Assembly: GCF_005222785.1 (NCBI RefSeq)
Contig: NZ_STGH01000001.1
Span: forward strand, 930,001-994,000
Direction of reading: 5' to 3'
DNA: 64,000 nucleotides
Source of the DNA: Rhodobacter sp. SY28-1
GTDB lineage: Bacteria > Pseudomonadota > Alphaproteobacteria > Rhodobacterales > Rhodobacteraceae
Part shown: positions 26,990 through 41,387 of the stretch, piece after piece
How the letters are laid out: the number at the start of each line of letters is the position of its first letter
Position numbering within the stretch: position 1 is the first letter of the stretch
Translations under genes and position numbers: made by a program
Notes under the pieces: model-generated
What the model was told of the DNA's origin: nothing
Databases searched by the model: none
Seen by the model: only the letters and a program-made list of their open reading frames with translations

Positions 26990-27172
26990 GATGGCAGGTC
27001 TCCTGACTTCGCGGGTCACAGCTTTCCCCCACCTTCCCGGCTGTCGCCAGTGGCTTCGGAGGGTCGCTCGCCGCTTACAGTTGCGGGGGCAGTCGGGGAT
27101 TTGGCGGCTGATGCCTACACCTCACCCCATTCCCTTTTCACCCGGCGGCGCTTTGCGCTGTGCCGGGAACCA
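26990..27172 (-). ncRNA. cobalamin (B12) riboswitch
   Basis: On the minus strand the conserved elements appear in order: GGTTCCC, GAAAAGGGAATGGGGTGAGG, the B12 box CCCCCGCAACTGTAAGCGG, GCCACTGG, and the closing AGTCAGGAGACCTGCC. It ends about 45 bp before the DUF1636 start codon. By analogy it turns expression of the six-gene transport/cobQ operon down when adenosylcobalamin is abundant. Confidence 0.93.
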
Positions 27173-27306
27173 TCGCCCCCTGTGTGCGCCGGAACGGCAG
27201 GCCGATCAAGACGGAAAGCGACACAGTGCGCGCTGCCCGCGCCAGGCGGTCGGCATGCGTGACATGCACACGCACGACAGGCGGTTTCTGGACGGATCGG
27301 GGGAGG

Positions 27307-27323
27307 AGTGGTGGCGAGGGAGG
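27307..27323 (+). repeat. left attachment site (attL)
   Basis: AGTGGTGGCGAGGGAGG, identical to 41309-41325. From 27309 the site reads TGGTGGC-GAGGGAG-GCCACCA: two 7-bp inverted arms around a 7-bp spacer, the layout of a tyrosine-recombinase core site. The 15 bases from 27309 are the left-behind copy of the tRNA 3' end. Confidence 0.8.
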
Positions 27324-27431
27324 CCACCAAACTACCATTCAACCTTGTCTCACATAGCCCCACTTTGTCCTTATTTTATTGAACTATAGTTTGGTTCCCT
27401 ATATCAAGCTATCTCATGTGGGTTCATGCAA

Positions 27432-27465
27432 TCCCACCGAAATAGGTGGGATAATCGGTGGGATA
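27432..27465 (+). promoter_or_regulatory. candidate integrase arm-type sites, left end
   Basis: TCCCACC (27432), then GGTGGGATA at 27445 and again at 27457, spaced 12 bp, immediately before the integrase start codon. The same GGTGGG core occurs twice, 12 bp apart, near the right end (41236 and 41248). Position and spacing suggest integrase arm binding and autoregulation of int. Confidence 0.5.
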
Positions 27466-27471
27466 GTAGCG

Positions 27472-28671
27472 ATGGGGAAGTTCACTGACAGAGGGGTGAG
27501 GGGCAAGCTGGCCCCAGGGCTACATGCTGATGGCGACGGGCTTTATCTCTCTGTGTCAACGGCTGACGCCCGATCATGGATCTTTCGGAGCACCATCAAG
27601 GGCCGCACAACAGGCAAGGGGACACCTTACCGAGTTGAGATCGGGCTAGGGTCGCTCAAGGACATTGGTCTTGCGGAGGCGCGCGAGAAAGCCGCGCAGA
27701 TGCGGAAGCAATGTCGAGCAGGCGTTAACCCGCTGGATCAGAAGCGCCGTGAACGCCAGACGTTTGAGCAAGTCGCGTTACAGCTCTACGCTAAGGAAGA
27801 GCCTACTTGGGCCGCGAGTCATGCGAAGCGGTGGCTGGCAAGTCTTGAGGTCTATGCCTTCCCGAAGATTGGAGGTCGTCCCATCGAGGACATTCGCAGG
27901 CCGGACGTCGTCGACGTGCTGGAGCCCCTTTGGCGCAGTAGGCACGAGACGGCCCGGAAGCTGAAAATCCGTCTGGCGCAAGTGATCGACTACGCGACGG
28001 ATCGCGGCCAGTATCACGAAGCGAACCCCGCGCGGGGTACGATCCGCTCACTTGAGACTTTCGATCGGAAGCCCGTGCACATGGCCGCGATGCCTTGGCC
28101 TGACCTGCCAGCCTTCATGGATCAACTGGGCGAGCGTGAGGGTGTGTCGGCCCGGGCCCTGGAGTTCGCGATCCTCACCTGCGCCAGAAGCGGAGAGGTG
28201 CGCGGCGCGACGTGGAGCGAGATCGACGAGAAGGCCAAGGTCTGGACCGTGCCGGCCGAGAGGATGAAGGCCCGCAGGGTGCATCGCGTGCCGCTCTCCG
28301 AGGCCGCTCTCGCCGTGCTCGCGAAGGTGCGCGGGCTGGAGTCTGAACTGATCTTCCCCAGCGCTCAGCGCGATAGTGAGGGCAGAGCAAAGGTTATGTC
28401 TGACATGGCCTTCAAAGCGCTCTACGGGCGGATGAAGATCGAGGGCATCACGACCCACGGCTTCCGGTCGTGCTTTCGCGATTGGTGTTCCGAAAGCGCC
28501 CGGGCCGACTTCGAGATTGCCGAGGCTGCGCTGGCCCATTCGGTCGGCACAACCGTTGCAAGGGCCTATGCGAGATCCGACCTGTTCGAGCGGCGGCGCG
28601 ACCTGATGGACGTTTGGGCGCGCTATGCGACTGGGCAGGCAGGGCAAGTCGTGCAACTGGTGCGCGCATGA
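27472..28671 (+). CDS. int: P4-type tyrosine integrase
   Basis: A 399-residue site-specific recombinase. The N-terminal DUF4102 arm-binding domain (GLHADGDGLYLSVS...WIFRSTIKGR...IGLGSLKDIGLAEARE) is followed by a core-binding SAM-like domain and the catalytic domain with Arg in TCARSGEVRGATW, HGFR in THGFRSCFRDW, His in AALAHSVG and the nucleophile Tyr in VARAYARSD. The start at MGKFTDRGVRGK is favoured because the preceding in-frame codons run through the arm repeats. It overlaps the next gene by ATGA. Confidence 0.92.
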   Translation: MGKFTDRGVRGKLAPGLHADGDGLYLSVSTADARSWIFRSTIKGRTTGKGTPYRVEIGLGSLKDIGLAEAREKAAQMRKQCRAGVNPLDQKRRERQTFEQVALQLYAKEEPTWAASHAKRWLASLEVYAFPKIGGRPIEDIRRPDVVDVLEPLWRSRHETARKLKIRLAQVIDYATDRGQYHEANPARGTIRSLETFDRKPVHMAAMPWPDLPAFMDQLGEREGVSARALEFAILTCARSGEVRGATWSEIDEKAKVWTVPAERMKARRVHRVPLSEAALAVLAKVRGLESELIFPSAQRDSEGRAKVMSDMAFKALYGRMKIEGITTHGFRSCFRDWCSESARADFEIAEAALAHSVGTTVARAYARSDLFERRRDLMDVWARYATGQAGQVVQLVRA

Positions 28672-29342
28672 CGCCGGAAGTCGAGGCCGAACTGAACAAG
28701 ATCGGCTGGGCGCGGGTCGTCGATCCATGGCAGCGAGCTTGGTTTTCGACTACACTGAAAGTCTACGGCGGCTTGGTCGCGCCTAGCCCAAAAGCAGCAG
28801 TGGCGGCAGCCAAGCGGCATCGCAGACTTTGCGTTGCGATCCTTGCGAGTGTCGAGGGCCTGACCGCACTCTCAGACGATGCACGAGGCACGATCAATCT
28901 GGAGTCGACGCCAGTTGACCATCGGGATGAAGGCTGGCCTGATCATGTCGGAGTTGCCATTGAGGCTCTTCATGCGATTAGCCCAGGCCTGCTCCGCTGG
29001 GAAGAGTTTCTGAAGCACGAAGAAGAGAGGGCCAAACGCGGGCGACCGAAAAATGAACCCGCTTATCGGATTGCATCTGCACTGGCTGAGATTCACCTGA
29101 TCGGCAAAGGGAAACCACCGAAGGTCGGCCGACTTGAGGATGGGGGCGGCCCAAGCGGCATCTACGGGCAGACCGTGGCGAACGTTTGTGCGCTGCTGGG
29201 TATCAAAGTTGCAGATGTGGTCCCCCCTTGCCTAGAGGCAGTCAAAGGACTGACACCGGAGCGGATTGCTGCGATTCGAATTGCTGTGAATCCTCGATCC
29301 ACTTCTCAATCAGACGCGCGAATGGAGAAATTCGCCCGCTGA
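28668..29342 (+). CDS. unknown protein co-transcribed with the integrase
   Basis: 224 residues, no recognised domain. It opens with MTPEVEAELNKIGWARVVDPWQRAW. A charged helix (EEFLKHEEERAKRGRPKNE) precedes ASALAEIHLIGKGKPP and a Gly/Pro-rich turn (EDGGGPSGIYGQTVANVC). Its start overlaps the int stop by ATGA, so it is translated with the integrase and may help excision or regulation. It is probably cytosolic and soluble. Confidence 0.65.
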   Translation: MTPEVEAELNKIGWARVVDPWQRAWFSTTLKVYGGLVAPSPKAAVAAAKRHRRLCVAILASVEGLTALSDDARGTINLESTPVDHRDEGWPDHVGVAIEALHAISPGLLRWEEFLKHEEERAKRGRPKNEPAYRIASALAEIHLIGKGKPPKVGRLEDGGGPSGIYGQTVANVCALLGIKVADVVPPCLEAVKGLTPERIAAIRIAVNPRSTSQSDARMEKFAR

Positions 29343-29421
29343 CCCTGCGTTTCTCCATTTGGACCGGGGGAGACGGACCTGACACCTTTGGCGGCAGATG
29401 AAACCGCAAGAGGTCCTTCCG

Positions 29422-29604
29422 ATGACGCCCGAACCCCTCTACCTCTCTGTCCGTGAAGTTGCCGCGCACTTTGGTTGCGGCGTTTCGACTGTCTGGCGCT
29501 GGGTCAAGCTCGGCTCCTTTCCGGCTCCGATGAAGATCGGGGGCCTGACACGATGGCATCGCAGCACCATCGACGCCTTTGCCATGACGCGGCGCGCAGC
29601 CTGA
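29422..29604 (+). CDS. AlpA-like MerR-type excisionase/regulator
   Basis: A 60-residue single HTH protein. LYLSVREVAAHFGCGVSTVWRWVKLGSFPAPMKIGGLTRW is the typical AlpA/helix_turn_helix_17 arrangement. AlpA proteins activate the integrase of cryptic prophages and P4-like islands and can act as excisionase. ATG 29422 with AGAGG upstream is preferred over 29398. It is followed 2 bp later by a small gene in another frame. Confidence 0.85.
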   Translation: MTPEPLYLSVREVAAHFGCGVSTVWRWVKLGSFPAPMKIGGLTRWHRSTIDAFAMTRRAA

Positions 29605-29606
29605 TC

Positions 29607-29825
29607 ATGACGCGCGCCGAGGTCCGACGACTCTTAAACAACTGGCCTCTGGTCTTGCGGCTAGCCACTGATCCGTGGGCCAAAGAGTTTGCTGAGTCGG
29701 TCTGGAAACAGGCCGGGAACGACATGCGCTGGATGCCCAGCCGCAAGCAACTTCGGATCATGCGCACAATGGTTCGGGAAGCTGAGGCCCAGCGCGAAGA
29801 TGACTTCGTGTTGATCGAGGACTGA
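29607..29825 (+). CDS. small unknown protein next to AlpA
   Basis: A 72-residue helical charged protein (MTRAEVRRLLNNWPLVLRLATDPWAKEFAES...RKQLRIMRTMVREAEAQREDDFVLIED). The start lies 2 bp after the AlpA-like stop, so translation is probably coupled. I recognise no family. Similar small acidic-tailed proteins occur in integrase-proximal regions of rhodobacterial islands as far as I recall. Confidence 0.55.
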   Translation: MTRAEVRRLLNNWPLVLRLATDPWAKEFAESVWKQAGNDMRWMPSRKQLRIMRTMVREAEAQREDDFVLIED

Positions 29826-30307
29826 ATTTAAGTGGCCCACCGCACTTGTTCGGCGGGCCGGTCAGCGGTCGGTAGGCTCTGGACGGGCTGGACGGTGGCG
29901 CTGATCGGAAGAGGTTTACCATGGGGTGCCCCCGAAGACCAGACTGCAGTCCGAAAGGCCGAAGCAGGGGGGCCGGTGCCAGTGATTGAAGGCGTCGGAA
30001 GTAGCGGCCAACCGGAGGGCGAAAATCACGCGCACCTTCGGGCCCTAAGCGGCGGCCAGGCTCCGTTGAGCAGGCAAGATCGCGCGGGCATGGGGACTTA
30101 CCCGAGCCAGTTGGCTGGGGTAGGTCGTCCTATGCCCGCCACAGCAGCCTCACCATTGAGCAGGCCAAAGAGGCAAGAGCGAACGATGACGTCGATCAAC
30201 CTCAGCGCGGTCGAACGAGCGGCGATTTCCCAAACATACTCGGTCGACCGGATCCGCGAAAAAGTCGCGCCAGTGCCTACAAAGTGCAGCCGGTCGCTGA
30301 TGCGCAG
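29826..30307. other. non-coding stretch of the island, left part
   Basis: No convincing gene. A 159-codon open frame on the plus strand (29832-30311) lacks a ribosome site and protein-like sequence; only its last 41 codons (from ATG 30186) look faintly coding. A GC stem (GGCCCACCG/CGGCGGGCC, 29832-29857) follows the last small gene and may terminate it. The hairpin at 30084 is the main structure. Confidence 0.5.
30084..30139 (+). ncRNA. long three-tier hairpin, candidate structured RNA
   Basis: Outer stem GCGGGCAT/ATGCCCGC, middle stem ACTTACCC/GGGTAGGT (one wobble), and inner stem AGCCA/TGGCT give a 56-base nearly continuous hairpin. It is flanked by a direct repeat TTGAGCAGGC (30066 and 30156). 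No T-run follows, so it is not a plain terminator. The strand is not known. Confidence 0.4.
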
Positions 30308-30439
30308 CTAGCAGTCGGTCGCGTGCTGGCTGAAATAGTAGCAGTCGCCGCTGTCTCTGGTGGCCGCAGAATAGATGCCGAAGATCACCCAAGCGGCCGC
30401 AAAAATCGTCAGGATGGGATGCTTGTGGAATTCATTCAT
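30308..30439 (-). CDS. 43-residue single-pass membrane mini-protein
   Basis: The open frame MNEFHKHPILTIFAAAWVIF... ends in CYYFSQHATDC. One hydrophobic helix (ILTIFAAAWVIFGIYSA) is followed by a short polar tail with two cysteines. An excellent ribosome site (GGAGG, 6 bases before ATG 30439) makes it a believable gene although it is tiny. It lies alone on the minus strand between the integrase genes and the restriction enzyme. No family is recognised; a toxin-like or envelope role is speculative. Confidence 0.55.
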   Translation of the reverse strand: MNEFHKHPILTIFAAAWVIFGIYSAATRDSGDCYYFSQHATDC

Positions 30440-30886
30440 GGCATACCTCCGAACTCACTTTGGCGACACTGTCTTGCGCGTCAGCCATAGCAGAGTTCTT
30501 CCCCGTCCTCGCCCACTTTCTGGCGCCGCCGCACTCGCCACCGAGCCAGAGGTCGGCCCGCGCGTGAGGAGCACCACCCGCCGTCCACCTTTTCATCCCG
30601 TGCGGTTTTGTTCGGGCCTTTTCTTGTTGATCTGGGCCGCGAAGAAGACGGGTTGACCAGTTGTCGCATGGCAGACGCTGGAAGTAAGCCTTGAAGCCTG
30701 TTTTCGGCCACTGTGGAGCGTGTGGTGAGGCTCCCCGGTCGCCAAGCACTCTCCCCCCACTCCGCAGGGTTGACGCTCTCCTTTCCGCGTCCTGCTAGGC
30801 GGGAATCCTCTCCTACTACTTCAGCAGTCAGCGTTGACGCTGGACATCGCGGACTGTCTATTGGGTTTGTCCAGTAGAGGCATTTC
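30440..30886. other. 447-bp non-coding leader before the restriction-modification gene
   Basis: No frame here has both a start signal and protein-like content. The last 60 bp hold the probable promoter listed at 30834. The stretch is otherwise unremarkable, with pyrimidine-rich patches (ctctccccccac). Confidence 0.4.
30834..30862 (+). promoter_or_regulatory. candidate sigma-70 promoter for the restriction-modification genes
   Basis: TTGACG (30834-30839), a 17-base spacer, then TCTATT (30857-30862), 24 bp before the ATG of the MmeI-like gene. A second TTGACG occurs at 30770. The -35 match and spacing are good; the -10 is moderate. Confidence 0.45.
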
Positions 30887-33736
30887 ATGACGCCGCAAGA
30901 GTTCATCGCCAAATGGCGCACCGTCGAACTGAAGGAACGCTCTGCCAGCCAATCCCATTTCAACAACTTATGCGCACTTCTCGGCCTCAAGGAACCGACA
31001 TCTGAAGACCCCAAGGGCGAATGGTTCACCTTCGAAAAAGGCGCCTCGAAATCATCGGGTGGCGAAGGCTGGGCCGATGTCTGGCGCAAGGACTGCTTCG
31101 CCTGGGAATACAAGGGCAAGCGCAAGGACCTGAACGCCGCCTTCGCCCAGCTTCAGCAATACGCTATCGCGCTGGAAAACCCGCCTTTGCTGATTGTGTC
31201 CGACATGGACCGCATCCGCATCCACACCAACTGGACCAACACCGTCCAGAAGGTGCACGAGATCACCCTGGAAGACCTGCTTGACGGGGCCAAGCGCGAC
31301 CTTCTCAAGGCCTGCTTCATCGACCCCGAACGCCTCAAGCCCCAGAAGACCCGCCAGGTCCTGACCGAGGAAGCTGCCAATCGCTTTGCCCAGATCGCCC
31401 AGCGGCTGCGCGCCCGCGGCCATGATCCGCAGGCCGTCGCCCATTTCGTCAATCGCCTTGTGTTTTGCATGTTCGCGGAAGACGTCAACCTTCTGCCGCC
31501 GAAGATGTTTGAGCGGATGATCCGGGCCGCCCGGCCCAAGCCAGAAACCTTCGCCACCCTTGCCGCCACCCTGTTTGCCGCAATGCGGACCGGCGGGCTG
31601 GTCGGCTTTGAACACGTCGAATGGTTCAACGGTGGGCTTTTCGACACCGACGACACCCTCCCCCTGACCTGGGAGGATATGGACGATCTGATCCGCGCCA
31701 CCGACATGGATTGGTCGGATATCGACCCCTCAATCCTTGGCACCCTCTTTGAACGCGGCCTTGACCCGGACAAGCGCAGTCAGTTGGGCGCACACTATAC
31801 CGACCGCGACAAGATCATGCAGATCGTGCGGCCGGTGATCGTGGAGCCCCTTCTAACCGAGTGGGAGGGCGTAAAGGCCCGGATCGTGGCCGAACTCGAC
31901 AAGGCTGAAACCCTGACCGGCAAGGCAGCCACCAAGGCAAGGGCCGAGGGCCAGCGCCTTCGCAGCGAATTCGGCGAAAAGCTGCTGAACTTCCGAGTGC
32001 TAGACCCGGCCTGCGGATCGGGGAACTTCCTATATCTCGCGCTTCTGGAACTGAAGAACATCGAACACCGGGTGAACCTAGAGGCCGAGGCGCTGGGCCT
32101 GCCCCGCGAATTCCCCCGCATCGGACCCGAGGCTGTGCTGGGAATCGAGCTGAACCCTTATGCCGCCGAACTGGCCCGCGTGTCGGTCTGGATCGGGGAA
32201 ATCCAGTGGATGCGCCGCAACGGGTTCGAAGCCGCGAAGAACCCGATCCTCAAGACGCTGGACACGATCCAGAACCGGGATGCCGTTCTGAATGCCGATG
32301 GAACGCGGGCAGACTGGCCCAAGGCCGATGTGGTCGTGGGCAACCCGCCGTTCCTGGGCAACAAGAAGATGATCCGCGAACTGGGTGAGGATTACCCGGT
32401 CGCCCTGCGCAAGGCGTGGGGCAACGTGCCAGGCGGGGCCGATCTGGTGTGCTACTGGTTCGCCAAAGCTTGGCAGCAGATGCAGGCGGGCGACTTGTCC
32501 CGCGCCGGCCTGGTCGCCACCAATTCCATCCGGGGTGGGGCGAACCGCGAGGTGCTTCGACCCATAGTCGAAGGCGGGCGCATCTATGAAGCGTTGAGCG
32601 ATGAAGGCTGGACAGTCGACGGTGCTGCCGTGCGCGTGTCGCTTGTCTGTTTCGATAGTGACAGAGGTGGGGCAGCGAGTCTCGATGGGAGAAAGGTCGA
32701 TGTGATTTACTCGGACCTTTCGGCGAGCGTCAGTGGAATAGACATCAGCAGTGCGTCGCAGCTGCAAGCCAATAGAAACGTAATGTTTCAGGGCGTAAAA
32801 TTTGTCGGAAGTTTCGATATCGATGAAGCAATCGCCGTCGACTGGCTTCGCGCCCCTTTGAATCCAAATGGCAGGCCCAATTCTGATGTTCTAAGGCTCT
32901 GGTTCAATGGTATGGATGTAACACGCCGCGCCGAGCGGCGATGGGTAGTGGATTTTGGACCATACGCAACGTTTGCGGACTCAGTTCTATATGAGCAGCC
33001 TTTTGAGCATGTGAGAAAATTTGTGAAGCCAGTTAGGGACAACGTCCGAATGGCTTCGCGGCGAGACTTTTGGTGGCGGTATGGTCGACCTTCGGAGGGG
33101 ATACGGGATTGCATGAAGAAAGACCGGTTCATTTCCACACCGGAAGTTTCTAAACATCGGGTCTTTGTTTGGAAGTATAAGGGCATGCTTCCCACGGGAT
33201 CTGTCTATGGAATCGCGCGCGACGATGACACCACCTTCGGCATCCTGCACTCACGGTTCCATGAACTCTGGGCGCTGCGCATGGGCACCTCACTGGAGGA
33301 TCGGCCCCGCTACACCCCCTCCACCACCTTCGAAACCTTCCCCTTCCCCGAAGGTCTAACCCCCAACATTCCCGCCGCCGACTATTCTGCCGACCCCCGC
33401 GCGCAGAAGATCGCCGCCGCCGCCGCCCGGCTGAACGAGCTTCGCGAAAACTGGCTGAACCCGCCGGACCTTGTGCAGCGCGTCGCCGAGGTCGTCCAAG
33501 GCTATCCGGACCGCATCCTGCCCAAAGACGCTAAGGCCGAAGCCGAGTTGAAGAAGCGCACCCTGACCAACCTCTATAACGCCCGCCCAGCTTGGCTGAC
33601 CCTTGTCCACAATGCCGTGGATGAAGCTGTAGCCGAGGCCTACGGATGGGGCGATGATTGGCACGCGGGCAAACTCACCGACGACGAAATCCTCGCCCGC
33701 TTGTTCCACCTGAACCAAGAACGGGCAACAGCCTAG
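30887..33736 (+). CDS. MmeI-like single-chain restriction-modification enzyme (type IIL/IIG)
   Basis: 949 residues. The N-terminal domain holds a PD-(D/E)xK nuclease motif: Asp64 in GWADVW, then Glu74-Tyr-Lys76 in FAWEYKGK (D-X9-E-X-K as in MmeI). A helical linker leads to a gamma-type N6-adenine methyltransferase with motif I VLDPACGSGNF (about residue 371) and motif IV VVGNPPF (about 486). Residues about 585-780 should be the target recognition domain, and DNA for this part (32640-33230) is visibly less GC-rich than the rest. The protein would cut and methylate the same site. The partner gene follows after 25 bp. Confidence 0.82.
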   Translation: MTPQEFIAKWRTVELKERSASQSHFNNLCALLGLKEPTSEDPKGEWFTFEKGASKSSGGEGWADVWRKDCFAWEYKGKRKDLNAAFAQLQQYAIALENPPLLIVSDMDRIRIHTNWTNTVQKVHEITLEDLLDGAKRDLLKACFIDPERLKPQKTRQVLTEEAANRFAQIAQRLRARGHDPQAVAHFVNRLVFCMFAEDVNLLPPKMFERMIRAARPKPETFATLAATLFAAMRTGGLVGFEHVEWFNGGLFDTDDTLPLTWEDMDDLIRATDMDWSDIDPSILGTLFERGLDPDKRSQLGAHYTDRDKIMQIVRPVIVEPLLTEWEGVKARIVAELDKAETLTGKAATKARAEGQRLRSEFGEKLLNFRVLDPACGSGNFLYLALLELKNIEHRVNLEAEALGLPREFPRIGPEAVLGIELNPYAAELARVSVWIGEIQWMRRNGFEAAKNPILKTLDTIQNRDAVLNADGTRADWPKADVVVGNPPFLGNKKMIRELGEDYPVALRKAWGNVPGGADLVCYWFAKAWQQMQAGDLSRAGLVATNSIRGGANREVLRPIVEGGRIYEALSDEGWTVDGAAVRVSLVCFDSDRGGAASLDGRKVDVIYSDLSASVSGIDISSASQLQANRNVMFQGVKFVGSFDIDEAIAVDWLRAPLNPNGRPNSDVLRLWFNGMDVTRRAERRWVVDFGPYATFADSVLYEQPFEHVRKFVKPVRDNVRMASRRDFWWRYGRPSEGIRDCMKKDRFISTPEVSKHRVFVWKYKGMLPTGSVYGIARDDDTTFGILHSRFHELWALRMGTSLEDRPRYTPSTTFETFPFPEGLTPNIPAADYSADPRAQKIAAAAARLNELRENWLNPPDLVQRVAEVVQGYPDRILPKDAKAEAELKKRTLTNLYNARPAWLTLVHNAVDEAVAEAYGWGDDWHAGKLTDDEILARLFHLNQERATA

Positions 33737-33761
33737 AGATTACCATACGGGAGGAAGTCTC

Positions 33762-34931
33762 ATGTTTCGTGTGGATCGTGGCGCCAACCGCATCTCGCGA
33801 CTAACTCAGAAGCGCTTTGGTGATCTAGGTCTGCGCGAGCGTGACCATCTCCAAGAATGGCTTGTGCATCAGCCCGATGCGTTGGGTGAAGAACTGCTGA
33901 TCCTGCAGAAGGAGTTTGATGGATTCGACGAGACCCGCGAGCGGCTGGACCTTCTGGCACTAGACAAGGCCGGCAACCTGGTGGTGATCGAGAACAAGCT
34001 TGATGACTCGGGCCGTGACGTGACTTGGCAAGCGCTCAAGTACGCTGCCTACGTCTCCACACTTAAGGCCGTGCAGATCGTCGAGGTCTTTCAGAAATAT
34101 CTTGATCGATACTGCGGAGGGGGCTCGGCCAGTGAGCTGATCTGCGAGTTTCTTGAAGTTGAGGAACTGCAGGAAGCGAAGTTGAACCCGTCGACCGGGC
34201 AAAGGATGATCTTTATCGCTGCGAACTTCCGGCGAGAGGTGACTGCGACTGCCATGTGGTTGATCGGCCGCGGCATCGCTATGCAGTGTTTCCGCGTTAC
34301 CCCGTTTGCATTCGGCGACGAGCTTTTCCTCGACCTGCAGCAGATTATCCCCCCGCCAGAAGCCGCTGACTATATGATCGGTATCTCTTCCAAAGAAGTG
34401 GAGGAGACCGCCGTTCAAGGAACGCAGAAGAGGCGCCACGATTTGCGGCTTCAGTTCTGGGCGCAGGCTCTGGAGCGGCTGCGAGCCGACGGAGTGCGGC
34501 TTTTTGAAAATGTGAGCCCCGCGAGCTCTCATTGGCTGAATGCCGGGTCGGGAGTGAGGTCATGCCCATATGCGATGGTTTTTGGACTAAGCGAAGCCCG
34601 CGTTGAACTCAGTCTCAATCGTCCGGACGCCTCAGAAAACAAGCGACTGTTCGATCAACTCCTGGCAAGCCGGAAGGAGATTGAGGCCGCATTCGGCCAC
34701 CAACTCGACTGGCGACGAATGGATAGCAAGAAGCAAAGCCGCATCGTGTTTTCCAAGGAATTCGATGGGTTGGACAAGGATAGTTGGCCTGCCATAACAG
34801 CCTGGTTGTCCAACCACATCAAATCCCTTGAAGCTGCATTCTCGGGTCCATTGACCAAGGTCGGACGTATGGTCCGTCTCAAGGACGAAGACGACGAGTC
34901 TGAACAAGATCTCGATCGAGTGCAGAAGTGA
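33762..34931 (+). CDS. DUF4268 protein with N-terminal NucS-like PD-(D/E)xK nuclease domain
   Basis: 389 residues. RLDLLALDKAGNLVVIENKLDDSGRDV contains a D...ExK nuclease core as in NucS/DUF91 proteins. The C-terminal part (FWAQALERLRADG..., ELSLNRPDASENKRLFDQLL, DGLDKDSWPAITAWL) matches the DUF4268 style. A good ribosome site (GGGAGGAAG) precedes the ATG. It is 25 bp behind the restriction-modification gene, so probably co-expressed; it may be an accessory or modification-dependent nuclease. Confidence 0.75.
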   Translation: MFRVDRGANRISRLTQKRFGDLGLRERDHLQEWLVHQPDALGEELLILQKEFDGFDETRERLDLLALDKAGNLVVIENKLDDSGRDVTWQALKYAAYVSTLKAVQIVEVFQKYLDRYCGGGSASELICEFLEVEELQEAKLNPSTGQRMIFIAANFRREVTATAMWLIGRGIAMQCFRVTPFAFGDELFLDLQQIIPPPEAADYMIGISSKEVEETAVQGTQKRRHDLRLQFWAQALERLRADGVRLFENVSPASSHWLNAGSGVRSCPYAMVFGLSEARVELSLNRPDASENKRLFDQLLASRKEIEAAFGHQLDWRRMDSKKQSRIVFSKEFDGLDKDSWPAITAWLSNHIKSLEAAFSGPLTKVGRMVRLKDEDDESEQDLDRVQK

Positions 34932-35065
34932 GACTTCGTTGCTCGCAAACCTCTGACCGCTCCCTATGCTAAGCCAGTCTGCGCATTGCTGCCATATTGC
35001 TCCCCTTACGCGCCAACTGTGACGCAGCGCACACTGAGAGAGCTGCGGGATGCCGGATCGTTCTC

Positions 35066-35518
35066 TCAAACACCTGCAGCCTTGTCGCTCGTCCGGCTAT
35101 CGATCATTTGCTGAGGCCGAATGTACCTGTAGCCCGAAGGGACTTCGACCTGACGCGCGTCGACATGAACCGAAACCGGAGAGACCTTTGCATCGGACCC
35201 GAGGAATTCAACCATGCGAGCGCGGATAGTCTCGTTCTTGGCATTCAGCATGAGATCGAGGCCCACCTCCAGCGCCTTCACCTTGAGATAGGCCTTCTTT
35301 GCCTCTGCGGTCTCAACAAGCTCGCGACGGAGTTCACGGATTAACTCTTGGACGTCGGGAGCCTTACGGGCCTTGTAGTAGGCCGCCCGGCTGTATCCGA
35401 CCTTCGCGCAGGCATCAGTGACAGACATGCCCTCGATCTCGTGAAGGCGAAGGACCGCACGGAACTTCTTTGATATCCGGGCAGGGCGATGGTTTGCGAG
35501 TGCGAGGGTTTGCGGCAT
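35066..35518 (-). CDS. HTH-domain protein, terminase-small-subunit-like
   Basis: A 150-residue basic protein. An N-terminal helix-turn-helix (FRAVLRLHEIEGMSVTDACAKVGYSRAAYYKARKAPDV) is followed by a long helix (IRELRRELVETAEAKKAYLKVKALEVGLDLML) and VEFLGSDAKVSPVSVHV. This resembles small phage packaging or regulator proteins. No large terminase is nearby, so a DNA-binding regulator is equally possible. It is divergent from the gene at 35748 over a 229-bp gap that otherwise shows nothing. Confidence 0.55.
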   Translation of the reverse strand: MPQTLALANHRPARISKKFRAVLRLHEIEGMSVTDACAKVGYSRAAYYKARKAPDVQELIRELRRELVETAEAKKAYLKVKALEVGLDLMLNAKNETIRARMVEFLGSDAKVSPVSVHVDARQVEVPSGYRYIRPQQMIDSRTSDKAAGV

Positions 35519-35747
35519 GCGCCCAAAGTACTTTCCTCGGGGACTGCAGCAAATGCACGGTCAGTTTCGGGGAGCAGTCCGGTCAACTGTTATCGGCGAA
35601 CTCACTGGACGCCATAGGTTGCTCACCGCTCAAAGCAGCCGGCTCAAAGTATGCAATTGCTTCCGCGCGAATTGTCGTCAGACTTCCGTCCATGTTGACG
35701 GCCATGCCCTTATCGGGTCTGCTTTGGCGTCAAATGTCGGAGTTAAC

Positions 35748-36674
35748 ATGTTCCAGGAATTGAAGCTCTTTTTCACAGATTATCCACGGCAGATCCTGGA
35801 GATGCAGGGGGTGAGGCCAGCCGAGCTGCCCGCGGGCCTGATGGATCGACTACTGGACTATCGGGATAGGTCTCTCGCCATCCTTGAGGACGCCCAAGTC
35901 TTTCGTATCGATGTCGATGCGTATTGGATGATGAGCGAGCTGATCAATGAGATGAAGCGGGAAGGCCTAGACGAGCTCTTCTCCCAGGTTCAACTGCCGT
36001 TCCCGACTATGATTATTATGCCACCTCTCGTGGGGGCGGATGGGATCATGCGGCAGAATGATGGCTCGGTGTTCGGCCTCGTCACGCAGGTTGACGACGA
36101 AATCTACACCCAGCGTTTCGCCATTCGCCAGAATACCGTCGGCCCGAGCGCCTACTGTATGATCACCAAGGGCATGGGAGCCTCGGCCGTCCCGACGCCC
36201 ACCCGCGAGCTGTTCGAAGCTGTAGGAATGCCGGTTTTGGATGGCCTGATTGAGGAAGAACTGGCCATGAGCCGAAACTTCCTTGGTTTGGCCGTCGCGA
36301 TAGCCACCCTGCTGCGCCATCATGGCATGCTGGATGTCCAGCAAGTTTCGCTCCACCCCAGGCACGAAAGGCGCCAAGCTGAGCGGTCCGGTAAAGTACT
36401 TCCTGACACACTCATCACGAAGATCGCCTTGGGCAAGGCCGGGCGCGGACAAGTCGAGGCTATGCAGGAAGGCATATCGACTGACGAGCGAAAAGGCTCG
36501 CCTCGAAGGACTCATTGGGTCAGGGGGCACTATATGAAAGGCAGGTCGGGCAAGATCGTGTGGCGCATGCCCCATTTGCGCGGCGCGGGCCCGTTGGTTC
36601 CTCAGCTGCGCCAAGTGACTGGCTCCGCATCGGCCAGCGGTCCAGCGACAACTCAGCAGGTCAATGACACCTAA
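35748..36674 (+). CDS. unknown island protein with AcrVA2-like C-terminal motif
   Basis: 308 residues. The N-terminal region MFQELKLFFTDYPRQILEMQGV is followed by a mostly alpha/beta middle (PFPTMIIMPPLVGADGIMRQ, AYCMITKGMGA, LDGLIEEELAMSRNFLGLAVAI) and a basic C-terminus (RRTHWVRGHYMKGRSGKIVW then RMPHLRGAG). The H..RGH....GK..W...PH..G pattern recalls, from memory, the end of AcrVA2 and its many relatives in phages and islands, whose functions are mostly unknown. ATG 35748 has GGAG upstream; longer frames upstream look non-coding. The 231 bp after it hold nothing clear. Confidence 0.55.
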   Translation: MFQELKLFFTDYPRQILEMQGVRPAELPAGLMDRLLDYRDRSLAILEDAQVFRIDVDAYWMMSELINEMKREGLDELFSQVQLPFPTMIIMPPLVGADGIMRQNDGSVFGLVTQVDDEIYTQRFAIRQNTVGPSAYCMITKGMGASAVPTPTRELFEAVGMPVLDGLIEEELAMSRNFLGLAVAIATLLRHHGMLDVQQVSLHPRHERRQAERSGKVLPDTLITKIALGKAGRGQVEAMQEGISTDERKGSPRRTHWVRGHYMKGRSGKIVWRMPHLRGAGPLVPQLRQVTGSASASGPATTQQVNDT

Positions 36675-36905
36675 ATGGTCCTTTGGACTATGCCACGCGC
36701 ATTTTAGAGTTCAGCCCTTGGCGGACATATGTCCATTAGTTCTACGCCGCGGTGCAGCTTCTCCGAACCAGCCATTCCTTGCACTATGCTACACGGTCCG
36801 GCGGGGCCCGATTAGCAGACGTTTAGCAACGCTATCCATGCGCCTCCGGCTCACGCAAAGTTCTGGGCGATTGTTCCATCACCGAAGAGAGACTCATTGC
36901 TAGGA

Positions 36906-39260
36906 TTAGGCACGTACCTGCACGCGCTCACGAACACGGTTGTAGATCCTGATCTCCGGTTGATGCTCGAGTTCCACAACAACTGCGAACCGCTGATCGA
37001 GAACCTGGTCCAGTGCCCAATGTGAAAGGCATCGAACGACGAGATAGTAGACTTCGCCATAGTAATTGGTGTCACGCTTGAAAGTGATTGAGGCCGTCTG
37101 AAGCGTGTTACTCGCCCGCTCATCCGATCCGGGTTGGAGCTTGCACTTAAACCTTTCTGGAACGTCTGGTGCTGCCCCCTCCAGCGCCTTGTCCCTTTCG
37201 CGGAAATGCTCAAAGAGCTCTGCCTCGTCGATGCCGCGCAGAAGACGGAAATCCATCTTGGTGCCCAGATAGTCACTCCGGGTGCGGCGGACGGGCGGGT
37301 CATAGGAGAGGGAGACCCGGATCGTCCGGGCGCCTCCCGTTCGGAACTCGGGTGGTATGGGCAGGCGGTAGACTGCGAACTGATCCATCTCCAAGGCGTC
37401 CTCGGCGTAGAGGACTACACGATGCTCATCCGAGTATGCAGCGCGGATGGGATCGACGACCCCGTTGCCTCCGATCCTGACTCGCTCGGTGGCGGACATT
37501 GCGGCCAACCGTCGTTCGAAGGCGTCGGGTGAGCGAGCCGCGCCCACGAGGAGCGCGCGTAAGAGGTTGGCGGATGCATTGGGCATACGGCGTAGCAGCT
37601 GTGCTGCCTTGCGGATCAACAGCGGCGCTGCAAAGGATGTGCCTCCGGCGGCCGTGAGAAACTGCTCGGTATAGCGATGGTTCAGCGTTATAACACCAGC
37701 TGCAGGCAGATGTGGTGCGCCAGTTAAGCTGATAGAGGGCACATCAAAGACAACCGTCCCGCCGAGGTCGACGACATCGGGTTTTCTCGCACCGCCTGCC
37801 CCAGGTCCAACCCGCGTGAAGGGCGAAGGCTCGCCCCATTCCCGCGTGATCGGCCGAACGTTTGCATCTCGCTCATGCCGGGCATCGAGGCCGGTTCCTC
37901 CCGCCACCGCTCCAACCGTCAGGACGTTTGCCGCGCCTGCGGGCTCAGCCAGCCGGTTTTCTGGCTCAAGCAGATAGGTTGGGTATACGGTTACAAGTTC
38001 TTCGGACGTTGCCGATCTGAAGGGTCTTGGCCGCCCCCGATTGCCGGCGGACACGACAATTAGTACGTCAAGCTCGCGGGCGAGTGCGTCAAGGGTAGCG
38101 GCCCAAGGACCGACCCGACCCTGTGGAAGGTTGGCGTTTGTATCGCCAAGAGACAGTACGAACAGTCGACAACCTTGGTCTGTATGCAGTGTGCGGATCG
38201 CGGAATCCATTAGATTTGGAACGGTGCGTCGGTCTGGGAACCGGCCGTTGTCGCCAACGACCTTGGCCACCGCTAGCCGTCCAACCGGTTCTAAAGCGCC
38301 CGTGGGAATCGCGTCGCGCAGGTCACCAAAAAGTGCTGTTCCAGCGACTGATGTGCCGTGTCCCCAAACATCGGCAGAGTCCGCGATTCCCTCGCCGAGG
38401 TAATGCCCCACGATTAGCCCGTCCAGCAATGGATGATCATTCACGCCGCTGTCGAGGACGCCGATGACCGGCGCACCATCCGCAGGACTGCGGACGGATG
38501 GGACCCCACTCGCTTCTAGGGCCACCATTGGCTGGGCTGTGAGATCCGGCTCCGGAGGTAGGTCAATTACTGCGACCTCTGGCACGCCGAGGAGAGGGCG
38601 GATGCCACGCCCCGTAGCTTCTACACGCATCACGGTGATGGATGGTCCGATATAGGTGTCGTAGACGGCCCCGCCTTGAGCAATCAGGAACTGTTCGATC
38701 TCCGCCACTTTCGCTTCGCGCCGGGCCCGGATGCCAAACTCCCAGAGCTCAATGTCGAGGACGTAGCGAACATCGTCCTGAAGATCCTCGGCTTCGGTGA
38801 AGCCTTCGGCTCTAATCTTCGGCCCCAGTCGATCCCGCGGGGCGAGCCAGCCGATCTCGTCGATCCGTCCCACGAGGCCGGCATAGTTCGGATTCTTTTG
38901 ACCTGGGTTTGCGGGCGGAGCGTCGAACTTGCCGAGGCGGTCGACGAACTCAGTCAAGTCGCCTGTTGAAGAGAAAAGCAGGACTGTGCGATCGGCATCG
39001 CTGGAGACCACCGACAGGCCGAGTTTCTCCCACTCGCTCTCTGCGATATGCCCTTCTACTTGGACGCGAAGGAGTAGAGAGGGATCGACGAAGGCGGCTG
39101 GCTTGGCAGCTCGCTGCTCCGCCACTGCAGCTTGGGTCTTGGTCTGAAGTGCACCGCCGTGACCTCCGCCGCGTCCAGGTGGCGCACCGCCGCCACCGGT
39201 CTTGCGCCGCGCGATCGGCACACGGGCACGGATTAGTTGCAAGTGGTCGAGCTGGGCCAT
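36906..39260 (-). CDS. subtilisin-like (S8) serine protease of an AAA+/protease pair, IteS-like
   Basis: 784 residues. The long N-terminal region starts with a Gly-rich basic segment. The S8 domain has an intact triad: Asp270 in VIGVLDSGVND, His301 in WGHGTSVAG and Ser542 in AGGTSFAAPLL, with oxyanion Asn407 in SAGNRG. About 200 residues follow, including RTIRVSLSYDPPVRRTRSDYLG. There is no signal peptide, so it is cytosolic. The ATPase gene lies 9 bp upstream in the same direction. Such S8/ATPase pairs are recorded as predicted anti-phage modules (IteS/IteA, name from memory). Confidence 0.8.
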   Translation of the reverse strand: MAQLDHLQLIRARVPIARRKTGGGGAPPGRGGGHGGALQTKTQAAVAEQRAAKPAAFVDPSLLLRVQVEGHIAESEWEKLGLSVVSSDADRTVLLFSSTGDLTEFVDRLGKFDAPPANPGQKNPNYAGLVGRIDEIGWLAPRDRLGPKIRAEGFTEAEDLQDDVRYVLDIELWEFGIRARREAKVAEIEQFLIAQGGAVYDTYIGPSITVMRVEATGRGIRPLLGVPEVAVIDLPPEPDLTAQPMVALEASGVPSVRSPADGAPVIGVLDSGVNDHPLLDGLIVGHYLGEGIADSADVWGHGTSVAGTALFGDLRDAIPTGALEPVGRLAVAKVVGDNGRFPDRRTVPNLMDSAIRTLHTDQGCRLFVLSLGDTNANLPQGRVGPWAATLDALARELDVLIVVSAGNRGRPRPFRSATSEELVTVYPTYLLEPENRLAEPAGAANVLTVGAVAGGTGLDARHERDANVRPITREWGEPSPFTRVGPGAGGARKPDVVDLGGTVVFDVPSISLTGAPHLPAAGVITLNHRYTEQFLTAAGGTSFAAPLLIRKAAQLLRRMPNASANLLRALLVGAARSPDAFERRLAAMSATERVRIGGNGVVDPIRAAYSDEHRVVLYAEDALEMDQFAVYRLPIPPEFRTGGARTIRVSLSYDPPVRRTRSDYLGTKMDFRLLRGIDEAELFEHFRERDKALEGAAPDVPERFKCKLQPGSDERASNTLQTASITFKRDTNYYGEVYYLVVRCLSHWALDQVLDQRFAVVVELEHQPEIRIYNRVRERVQVRA

Positions 39261-39269
39261 CCCGCCTTC

Positions 39270-40268
39270 CTAAAGGGAGGTGGCCGACGTGCCACCGTTC
39301 TGCGTCCTCGCACGCCGGCGCTCTGAATTGCGCAGGGCTGAGCGCAGATGGCCGTCCGTCACACCCGTGTTGCCATCGAGGATCGACATCTTGATCGCTT
39401 GTTGGGTAATTCGGGCCAGTTCCGCATAGGAGCATCCCGTCAGACGCTCGACATAGGTCGTCGGATCAATAGACTTAGCTACATTGCGAAAGGCGTGGCG
39501 CAGGTAGGTCTCGATCATCCGGGCGTCTGGTAGGTCGAACCAGACCACCTCGTCGAACCTTCTCCAAATCGCTGGATCGAGCTGACTGGCAAGGTTCGTC
39601 GCTGCTATCAGAAATCCGCCAGGCTCGATCTGCTCGATGAACATCAAAAGGCTATTGACCACACGGCGCAACTCGCCAGTCTCGGTCGCATCCTCTCGCG
39701 AGCGCGCCAGCGCATCGAACTCGTCGAAGAAGAGAACGCAAGGCTGGCGCCGCGCGAACTCGAAGGTTTTGCGGATGTTGGTTGCCGTCTCGCCGAGATA
39801 GGACGACACGAGGCTGTCGAGACGTACATGGAAGAATGGCAGTCCCAACTCGCCGGCGAACACCTCGGCGCACATGGTCTTCCCGGTCCCCGGCGGGCCA
39901 CAGAAAAGCAGTTTAGATCGAACTTCGAGACCATGGCGGCGTAGGCGGTCCGCCTGCCGGTACTCGCGGATTATGCCGGCAAAAAGCTCGGTGTTCTCCT
40001 GAGACAGGTGAAGCTCGGTCGGCGTGCGGCGTGGCTCCACCCGCTGGATAAACTCGCGTGCTTCGTCCGGAAAGGGCAAGAGCTTAGTTGCGGGAGCCGC
40101 TCGGGTTGCACCTTCACCGAGGTGATCAAGAGACCTACGCAAAGAATCTGCGAGCACTCGATTGCCCTTGCGCTCTTCCTCGCCAATTATCTGCTCGAAC
40201 ACGGTGCGGAACTTATCGTCGCGACCGTAGCTCGTTATGAGCTTCTTCATCAGTTCGCCGCGCGCCAT
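39270..40268 (-). CDS. AAA+ ATPase of an AAA+/subtilisin pair, IteA-like
   Basis: 332 residues, FtsH/spastin-type AAA core: Walker A GPPGTGKT (124-131), Walker B VLFFDEFDAL (178-187), sensor 1 AATN (Asn225) and Arg fingers in WRRFDEVVW (236-237). The N-terminal 110 residues are helical and charged and may recognise a partner or target; the lid domain follows (CSYAELARITQQAI). It is 9 bp upstream of the protease gene. The ATPase probably senses or unfolds a target for, or restrains, the protease. An ordinary chaperone is less likely given the island setting. Confidence 0.82.
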   Translation of the reverse strand: MARGELMKKLITSYGRDDKFRTVFEQIIGEEERKGNRVLADSLRRSLDHLGEGATRAAPATKLLPFPDEAREFIQRVEPRRTPTELHLSQENTELFAGIIREYRQADRLRRHGLEVRSKLLFCGPPGTGKTMCAEVFAGELGLPFFHVRLDSLVSSYLGETATNIRKTFEFARRQPCVLFFDEFDALARSREDATETGELRRVVNSLLMFIEQIEPGGFLIAATNLASQLDPAIWRRFDEVVWFDLPDARMIETYLRHAFRNVAKSIDPTTYVERLTGCSYAELARITQQAIKMSILDGNTGVTDGHLRSALRNSERRRARTQNGGTSATSL

Positions 40269-40287
40269 GTCACCTCCCGTTTCCCAT

Positions 40288-40578
40288 CTACCCTAGCTGT
40301 TCAAGAAAGGCCTTGCCAACAATAACTGAAGTCTTGAAGTTCCAGGAGCCAGATGCACTCGGGTTCGGATCATTGGACGCAGTTAGAACGGGCCCTGCAA
40401 AGAAAGACGCTATCGCCCTTAAGACGTACGCCGCGGCTCGGCCGAGCTGATCGACGATTATCGTGGCGCCGCTGCCAACTATCCTGGCGTTGTGGCGGAA
40501 AAGTCCAGAACCAAATGGAACCGTCTGCTGCATCCGCAGCCCGTATCGAAGCAGCCACCTTAGTGCACTTTGCAGCAT
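40288..40578 (-). CDS. possible small protein upstream of the AAA+ gene
   Basis: A 96-residue frame (MLQSALRWLLRYGLRMQQTV ... GSWNFKTSVIVGKAFLEQLG) ends 19 bp before the ATPase start on the same strand. The second half (DQLGRAAAYVLRAIASFFAGPVL) looks protein-like, but there is no clear ribosome site and no known family. It could be a third component of the protease module, a degraded gene, or chance. Confidence 0.3.
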   Translation of the reverse strand: MLQSALRWLLRYGLRMQQTVPFGSGLFRHNARIVGSGATIIVDQLGRAAAYVLRAIASFFAGPVLTASNDPNPSASGSWNFKTSVIVGKAFLEQLG

Positions 40579-40620
40579 CCTGAAAACTCGGCTGGCAACT
40601 GTTGCGCAGCGGCCCGGCAC

Positions 40621-41308
40621 CTATCTGGACTCTATGTGCCGACAGAGTCCCCCTTCGTCCGCCTCCGTACATTACGCGCAATCACCTCGCCTCGGCGGCG
40701 AATGACCGAACTCCGTCAGATCAATCTTTTCTCTATATCCATGTAATATAATAAAAAATTGCGAAAAACTTGTTCGCGAAAGCTGGAGTGGAGTACTCCA
40801 ATCGCGCGGTCAGTTCTTCCCCCACCCCCCCGCGCGCGACCCCCGCGGGGTCTGTGCGCACGATCGCCGACATACATGGCCGGTTTTTGGGCGCCAGTTC
40901 CACCAGCCGCAGGGAGGTCGTACAGAAGCCGCACCAACCGGTCGAACGGGCGCCGCCTTTCTTTCGGTGTCCAGCGGCCAACTAAGGAGTGGAGATCCTC
41001 GACATCGCAATCGCGCGCGTATGGCGAGTTCACCGCCGCCGCTTCCTACAGGACGTCCTCAAGGGATTCCAGGAAGCCGTCGACCAACTGATCGCACCTC
41101 CGGTTTCATTGTGCGCCTTCGTAGGTCTTCGGGAATCACAGCCATTTTGCTCTCCTCCAACGCGCCAACAGGATGGAGCGCACAAGCCGCATGCAGGACG
41201 AGATGCTATCTTTTTCGGGTAACTGAGTGAGCGCTGGTGGGAAAACCGGTGGGTCAAACCCCAGATGGTCCGATATTCCCTTGGGATTACAGAACCTTAT
41301 GTAAGTTT
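40621..41308. other. non-coding right end of the island
   Basis: About 690 bp without a credible gene. It contains a markedly AT-rich patch at 40730-40765 (TGTAATATAATAAAAAATTG) that includes TATAAT-like hexamers and could be a promoter. It also contains the GGTGGG arm-like motifs at 41236 and 41248. Open frames here (e.g. 40716-41033, minus) have biased Arg/Gly/Pro content expected from chance in GC-rich DNA. Confidence 0.45.
41236..41254 (+). promoter_or_regulatory. candidate integrase arm-type sites, right end
   Basis: GGTGGGA (41236-41242) and GGTGGGT (41248-41254), 12 bp apart as at the left end, 55-75 bp inside the right attachment site. See the left-end entry at 27432. Confidence 0.45.
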
Positions 41309-41325
41309 AGTGGTGGCGAGGGAGG
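41309..41325 (+). repeat. right attachment site (attR) inside the tRNA 3' end
   Basis: AGTGGTGGCGAGGGAGG, direct repeat of 27307-27323. Fifteen of the 17 bases form the CCA end, the 3' acceptor strand and the start of the T stem of the tRNA gene, so the island restores the full tRNA sequence here. Confidence 0.8.
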
Positions 41326-41387
41326 GACTCGAACCCTCGACCTCGCGATTATGAGTCGCGCGCTCTAACCAGCTGAGCTACCTAGCC
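41311..41387 (-). tRNA. tRNA-Met (CAT anticodon, elongator type)
   Basis: 77 nt with encoded CCA: D arm GCTC...GAGC, anticodon stem CGCGA/TCGCG around loop CTCATAA, variable AGGTC, T arm GAGGG-TTCGAGT-CCCTC. The body resembles elongator tRNA-Met (GGCTA.GTAGCTCAG); tRNA-Ile2 (CAT, lysidine) cannot be fully excluded. In the acceptor stem, position 4 (T) faces C at 69, a mismatch. The 3' end doubles as the island attachment site. Confidence 0.9.

Follow-up and report, generated by a model that had tools for sequence, protein, structure and literature searches.

Gene content and borders of the island

The subject of this analysis is an island at positions 27,307 to 41,325 of a 64,000-nucleotide stretch of DNA from Rhodobacter sp. 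SY28-1 (NZ_STGH01000001.1, positions 930,001 to 994,000 of the forward strand), which is referred to as the window throughout. The island ends in a tRNA-Met gene and carries an integrase, defence genes, a gene for a terminase small subunit (TerS) and a conserved non-coding site that accompanies TerS; we read it as a probable phage satellite. The features that bear most directly on this reading are the following.

27307..27323, no strand: tRNA-distal attachment site, a 17-bp copy of the tRNA-Met 3′ end (whole-genome count and empty-site comparison)
27379..28671, plus strand: P4-type tyrosine integrase, int (Pfam Phage_int_M, Arm-DNA-bind_3 and Phage_integrase; start codon uncertain)
28668..29342, plus strand: iolg-like gene for a 224-aa protein, overlapping the int stop codon by ATGA (without family match; 29% identical to the equivalent gene of the G321 island, E = 9e-13)
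29398..29604, plus strand: AlpA-like helix-turn-helix (HTH) protein (HTH_17, 43.4 bits, above cut-off; Phage_AlpA, 20.2 bits, just below the cut-off of 21; homologues in six islands)
35066..35518, minus strand: TerS (PHROG phrog_4102; homologues precede the terminase large subunit, TerL, in phage-type contigs)
40745..40894, plus strand: conserved non-coding site associated with TerS, candidate packaging (cos/pac) site (profile, reversed control, leave-one-out, geometry)
41309..41325, no strand: tRNA-proximal attachment site, the same 17 bp (whole-genome count and empty-site comparison)
41311..41387, minus strand: tRNA-Met (CAT), intact (ARAGORN; Rfam tRNA)

A preliminary description of this DNA had placed a 17-bp repeat at both ends of the island, and the repeat is indeed found at these positions. 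Its sequence, AGTGGTGGCGAGGGAGG, comprises the last 15 bases of tRNA-Met(CAT) plus two further bases, and this 17-mer occurs exactly twice in the genome of 4,281,633 bases, both times at the island ends. The tRNA had been said to remain intact, which agrees with the whole tRNA called by ARAGORN. From core to core the element measures 14,002 bp. A same-strand copy of the 15-bp tRNA end within 20 kb arose in none of 2000 mononucleotide shuffles, and the GC content of 1-kb bins ranges from 0.555 to 0.637 between 27001 and 41000, as compared to 0.618-0.739 in the remaining bins. Inside the island, an Rfam search (E<=1) returned the tRNA itself and, on the opposite strand of the tRNA, a single sub-threshold match; no other RNA was reported.

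If the island is mobile, relatives should display an empty site with one 17-bp copy and no 14-kb segment, as had also been predicted. Both flanks were searched in the 31 other genomes of the genus, all counts being minima among the matches listed. The left flank and tRNA-Met lie less than about 10 kb apart on one contig in at least nine of them, and in three (G024, G015 and G010) the two adjoin directly and match the joined flanks of the window in one unbroken alignment over the junction; the complete 17-bp core, in a single copy, was seen in G010. In the remaining six, the two are separated by other genes (judged visually from their translations to be gnd/SMP-30/SDR-type in four, transposase-like in one and others in one), and a scan for six 10-base variants of the tRNA end showed no second copy there apart from one look-alike in L060. 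About 2 Mb separate the flank from the tRNA in G007. The same island was not found in any other genome of the genus among the matches listed. Taken together, it is nearly certain from the sequence comparison that a 14-kb mobile island is integrated at tRNA-Met.

A side observation concerns the loci L056-L059, where gnd/SMP-30/SDR-type genes (named by eye) lie between the left flank and tRNA-Met without a second copy of the core.

The window integrase sits at the tRNA-distal end of its island, whereas among the loci with the nearest integrases the tRNA is directly upstream of int and on the same strand in 22 of 29. This int-distal plan recurs in genomes G314 (tRNA-Met, 16-bp repeat) and G321 (tRNA-Ala, 17 bp), whose islands gave no TerS match, as well as in G004 (tRNA-Ala, 20 bp), G256 (tRNA-Ser, 19 bp), G367 (tRNA-Met, 16 bp) and, with a more distant integrase, G014 (tRNA-Arg, 40-bp repeat). 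In the window, G314, G321 and G004, int shares an ATGA with an open reading frame (ORF) of 195-230 aa, and the four proteins encoded by these ORFs form two homologous pairs. Overlapping ORFs of this kind were present at 4 of 10 loci in a first set, which includes one ordinary locus (L220), and at 2 of 24 in a second set (L107 and L115).

TerS and the conserved site

For the TerS proteins of the window, G004, G256 and G328, phrog_4102 (terminase small subunit) is the best PHROG match, with E values of 5e-6 to 5e-4. In the viral contig L179, a homologue lies upstream of TerL, a connector and a major head protein. When a profile of four TerS proteins was searched, 5 of 394 genomes at the family level and 3 of 32 at the genus level matched strongly (E<=4.3e-20), which makes seven distinct genomes when our own is counted once. 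Five of these seven (the window, G004, G256, G367 and G014) are islands with both repeats and a tRNA-distal integrase; the other two, G328 and G437, start at a contig end and lie within about 1 kb of a tRNA, and the TerS gene of G437 is truncated. Left uncounted were 20 of the 25 family genomes, in which the TerS matches were weak (E 1.2e-6 to 1e-3), and two weak matches from the genus-level search. The TerS of G014 is 73% identical to that of the window, and the TerS tree, in which only the pairs window and G014 and L304 and L229 are well supported, is compatible with one capture as well as with several.

BLASTN between islands revealed a stretch near the tRNA end that is common to the window, G004, G014 and G256, and a site profile was built from these four copies. 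It was run on the window and on 225 loci (1.54 Mb, with some overlap) that had been collected prior to any search with the site. At E<=1 it returned the four training copies and five more matches, and nothing else: G437 (6.7e-9), G367 (5.2e-8), L179 (8.6e-5), L178 (8.5e-4) and G328 (1.3e-3). The nine site-bearing elements are exactly those with strong TerS (E<=1.7e-21), and the site is therefore present in all seven strong-TerS genomes and in two viral contigs with TerS (L179 and L178). The 20 loci with weak TerS, with flanks of about 1.5 kb, showed no conserved site at E<=1 in the profile search. A reversed-sequence control gave no match at E<=10, and a leave-one-out procedure recovered every training copy (window 3.8e-8, G004 1.2e-15, G256 1.2e-4, G014 4e-17). 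Within the genus, the three strong-TerS genomes each contain one instance of a simple site pattern, which the 29 others lack; since the pattern was derived from those three, only its absence elsewhere counts as a test.

The association was also approached from the opposite direction. Two site patterns drew 77 + 15 = 92 stretches from IMG/VR contigs, and three of these (L304, L310 and L229) match the site profile at E<1e-3. The same three are the sole TerS carriers at E<1e-10 among the 92. TerL is present in the records of L304 and L310 (53% and 63% identical to the TerL of L179); the record search returned no TerL in L229, L178 and L179, yet the L179 TerL protein scores 8e-16 when it is compared directly.

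The arrangement of gene and site bears on the question of what the site does. In the seven islands it stands in front of terS in every case, antiparallel to the gene and at distances of 31 bp to 5.2 kb. Such an upstream position might be expected if the TerS-like protein regulated by binding DNA, with the site serving as its operator, or as an origin, rather than for packaging; HTH_23 is moreover the sole Pfam match above cut-off in the window protein, and the packaging role of the site is that of a candidate. However, in the four phage-type contigs (L179, L304, L310 and L229) the site follows terS after 56-101 bp, in antiparallel orientation, and precedes terL where terL was found; the homologues hold the position of terS, and in three islands the site is separated from the gene by 4.6-5.2 kb with cargo in between. 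A regulator with its operator or origin is for these reasons quite improbable. In L178 the site lies 7.2 kb behind terS. The genes between TerS and the site are a 308-aa gene, IetS and IetA in the window, transporter-type genes in G014, and kinase- and regulator-type genes in G256 (from translations, one G256 kinase by family match). Folding the site as single-stranded DNA gave a z of -1.24, and a promoter and terminator scan near the tRNA found nothing above chance. We consider it fairly probable that 40745-40894 is a packaging site, whether cos or pac, an operator being another candidate.

Defence cargo

The cargo of the window island is mainly of the defence type.

30887..33736, plus strand: MmeI-like type IIG restriction enzyme-methyltransferase (Pfam MmeI domains; PADLOC REase_MTase_IIG, 1037 bits)
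33762..34931, plus strand: PDC-S11/DUF4268 protein, nuclease-type (DUF4268, 121.5 bits; PDC-S11, 557.7 bits, PADLOC; weak NucS match)
36906..39260, minus strand: IetS, S8 peptidase (PADLOC IetS, 391.9 bits; NCBIfam IteS, 85.5 bits, below the cut-off of 900)
39270..40268, minus strand: IetA, AAA ATPase (PADLOC IetA, 280.4 bits; NCBIfam IteA, 245.6 bits, below the cut-off of 510)

The first of these proteins has the single-chain architecture of type IIG enzymes, with MmeI_N, MmeI_hel, MmeI_Mtase and MmeI_TRD at or above cut-off. The window resembles IetAS in that an AAA ATPase and an S8 peptidase are adjacent and match the PADLOC models over nearly their full length. It differs in that both scores fall below the NCBIfam cut-offs, because of which we regard the window pair as a divergent member. 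The best reading of this arrangement is that of two defence cargo bays, one with the type IIG enzyme and PDC-S11 and one with IetAS. The gene content thus agrees with the earlier list (P4-type integrase, type IIG enzyme, nuclease-type protein and an AAA+/protease pair, here IetAS), apart from an AcrVA2 label that is taken up below. Its characterization as a "defence-type island" holds as far as island and cargo are concerned, but was incomplete, since TerS and the conserved site near the tRNA end had been missed, as had the two genes after int (the overlapping one and the AlpA-like one).

A probable PICI-like phage satellite

Our favoured reading, to which we assign a probability of about 0.7, is that of a phage satellite of 14.0 kb, integrated at tRNA-Met and carrying defence cargo, that resembles the phage-inducible chromosomal islands (PICIs). 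Its support at the sequence level consists of the attachment sites, the empty site, the integrase, the ATGA-overlapping gene, the AlpA-like gene, TerS, and the pairing of TerS with its site in islands and phage-type contigs. The island would then probably travel inside virus particles.

A plain integrative defence island would instead be excised by Int and AlpA and spread passively, by transformation, generalised transduction or gene transfer agents, with TerS as an idle phage gene. The defence-dominated cargo of the window fits this explanation, as do the lack of a recognised replication gene, the truncated TerS gene of G437 and the transporter-type cargo of the G014 island. Yet the seven islands, which occupy five tRNA genes (Met, Ala, two Ser, two Arg loci) and differ in cargo, have all kept TerS and the site as a pair, and an idle gene would be expected to lose its site. 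We regard this explanation as unlikely, and the phage satellite as the likelier of the two, because TerS, the int-overlapping gene, the AlpA-like gene and the conserved site occur together.

The int, AlpA-like and TerS genes might also be what is left of a decayed prophage that gained defence genes later. In keeping with such an origin, the G004 island has a virion-type gene and the G256 island one that is tail-fibre-like. Among the window proteins scanned, however, there is no TerL, portal, capsid or lysis family, and repeated decay to one small layout at different tRNAs is improbable. A prophage remnant is thus very improbable.

Several observations weigh against the satellite reading. The PHROG scores of TerS are modest, the case for it being one of context, a profile search of the PDB gave nothing meaningful, and Foldseek with a single-sequence model (mean predicted local distance difference test, pLDDT, 64.9) reached a best E of 0.16 with the phage protein 2ao9, the TerS of E217 appearing at rank 30, a result that was not counted. 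Compared to phage records, the TerS of G328 matched Streptococcus satellites only (13 of 13, E 9e-3 to 0.2), whereas that of G256 gave a mixed result, with six of twelve being satellites, four Vibrio virus records (with a note on a PM2-type capsid) and two Streptomyces phages; nothing useful was obtained with the TerS of the window (four Enterococcus phages, E 2-3) or of G004 (five records, E 0.5-6). Furthermore, the site is upstream of terS in the islands and downstream in the phages, no replication family was found among the window proteins scanned, where short ORFs were only partly covered, and among the related islands G256 has no ATGA overlap and G367 an overlap in another register. At E<=0.01, the window TerS has no match among phages or plasmids. 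The idea that TerS matches among phage records are mainly satellites is weakly supported by these results.

If the island is a satellite, its cycle could begin with infection by a helper phage or the induction of one, upon which AlpA, Int and the iolg-like protein would excise a circle. The satellite TerS would bind the predicted site at 40745-40894 and lead the TerL of the helper to it, such that satellite DNA is packed into helper particles. The next cell would gain the satellite together with its defence cargo, which may act on competing phages. Candidate helpers would be phages with a terS-site-terL-connector-capsid cassette like that of L179, L304 and L310. Separately, we note two TerL-like matches in the genome of this strain (G000:C3:16622-17581, 3.6e-17, and G000:C3:841326-841805, 3.9e-6), which may belong to a prophage or a gene transfer agent.

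Comparison with known satellites

PICIs are described as carrying int, a regulator, a replication module and, in some cases, TerS (PMC6092414). The window resembles them (as portrayed there) in its small size, its own attachment site, int at one end, an AlpA-type regulator, TerS and accessory genes, and no phage structural or lysis genes were recognised among its matches. It differs in having TerS on the strand opposite to int and in the absence of a recognised primase or rep gene, and for the latter reason we use the term PICI-like rather than classing it among the PICIs. The related G367 island does have a replication-initiation-like gene, and the relatives G004 and G256 each carry one virion- or tail-type gene. 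This comparison is one of genes and sites; phage-dependent induction, interference and packaging in infectious particles are further traits of PICIs.

A second point of comparison is PICMI, a phage-inducible chromosomal minimalist island of Vibrio, in which int, iolg (a gene placed alike, after int) and alpA are each required for excision (PMC10803314). The window has int, an ATGA-overlapping gene and alpA in the same order, the likeness to iolg being one of position and overlap, and defence genes are accessory cargo in both. In contrast, PICMI as described in that source lies beside fis, has a primase, lacks TerS and measures about 6 kb, whereas the window island lies at a tRNA, has TerS and no recognised primase, and measures 14 kb.

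With P4-type tRNA-borne islands, the window shares a P4-type integrase and an AlpA-like gene at a tRNA 3′ end, but its integrase is distal to the tRNA. The core genes of P4 are primase alpha, psu, delta and sid, and none of these names appeared among the general library matches of the window proteins, for which no gene-by-gene search was made.

Other genes and related islands

The remaining features of the island are these.

27301..27466, no strand: neighbourhood of the tRNA-distal attachment site, partly kept in other islands (BLASTN to G367, G321 and G256), possibly an integrase arm region
29607..29825, plus strand: 72-aa ORF, function unassigned (the longer reading 29475-29825 is without family match)
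29879..30167, no strand: stretch outside recognised genes, conserved with the G256 island (69% over 298 columns; BLASTN between islands)
30545..30785, no strand: stretch outside recognised genes, conserved with the G004 island (69% over 245 columns; BLASTN between islands)
35748..36674, plus strand: 308-aa protein, function unassigned, earlier labelled AcrVA2-like (family of relatives)

The stretches at 29879-30167 and 30545-30785 may represent an origin, a regulatory site or a lost gene.

Relatives of the 308-aa protein occur in 9 of 295 family-sample genomes (our own included) and at 30 loci in one scan of named genomes, mostly Rhodobacteraceae; the closest, in Rhodobacter maris and a Paracoccus, are 84% identical. 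The family alignment (A2) omits partial sequences as well as L123, which has an internal stop. The likeness to AcrVA2 consists of the earlier label and a C-terminal motif, and neither sequence searches nor NCBIfam nor Foldseek support it. We dropped the identity after PDB searches with the single protein and with a six-member profile had found no AcrVA2, the presence of 7CI1/7CI2 in the searched copies being unverified. NCBIfam gave no meaningful match for 23 family members, and Foldseek of the 308-aa protein found nothing in the PDB at E<=0.001; against viral models it found nine proteins at E<=0.001, with TM-scores of just 0.17-0.43. In PHROGs, phrog_10678, which has no assigned function, was matched by 3 of the 23 members. 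A remote relation to AcrVA2 may exist. AcrVA2 is reported to be represented by the structures 7CI1/7CI2 and to read nascent Cas12a (PMC13131331).

A joint unit of the 308-aa gene and IetAS was also considered, and was rejected as a rule: the two are neighbours in the window and, with the order changed, in Citreimonas salinaria, but at none of the other 31 loci compared (flanks <=7 kb). At L130 and L087 (Citreimonas salinaria/G102), a single row of genes comprises IetA, IetS, a 298-aa gene and one related to the 308-aa gene. Among the 32 loci compared for the 308-aa gene, four had weak int or AlpA matches (L129, L141, L150 and L152).

The related islands vary in content. That of G367 has an integrase about 55% identical to ours, AlpA, the replication-initiation-like gene, a repressor-type gene and TerS, and the tRNA-Arg island of G014 (L215/L216) carries cargo resembling a transporter gene set. 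The virion structural protein phrog_684 is found in the G004 island (L167 4987-7491) and in viral contig L178 (117-917), both with TerS, and the G256 island (L176 7734-10644) encodes a tail-fibre-like and a DprA-type protein. The G314 island (L154 8746-19541) follows the same int-distal plan with other cargo, namely a HATPase protein, a cytosine methyltransferase and a weak type IV restriction match. The genome of SY28-1 contains two more P4-type integrases, at G000:C1:1082388-1083551, with an AlpA-like gene near, and at G000:C2:560121-561317. In the left flank (window 27000-27189, minus strand), a cobalamin riboswitch (Rfam RF00174, 93.8 bits, cut by the edge of the searched stretch) precedes a DUF1636 gene.

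Implications

A search of the open-licence full-text literature found no earlier account of phage satellites in Rhodobacteraceae or Alphaproteobacteria. We lean slightly towards the view that the islands described here represent an undescribed family of tRNA-borne satellites in Rhodobacteraceae and their kin, with a portable TerS and a cognate site shared with phages of the connector/capsid type, in which the site would have moved from behind terS to before it and cargo, for example IetAS, would have been loaded in between.

How defence islands move is often unknown, and a TerS gene together with a DNA site offers a concrete and testable route, namely packaging by helper phages. If this is the case, a TerS-type satellite family would be added in Rhodobacteraceae, and TerS plus site would constitute a sequence tag with which its members and their helper phages could be found. 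The design would be a compact one, with antiviral cargo placed inside the packaging module, such that defence systems like IetAS would ride within it.

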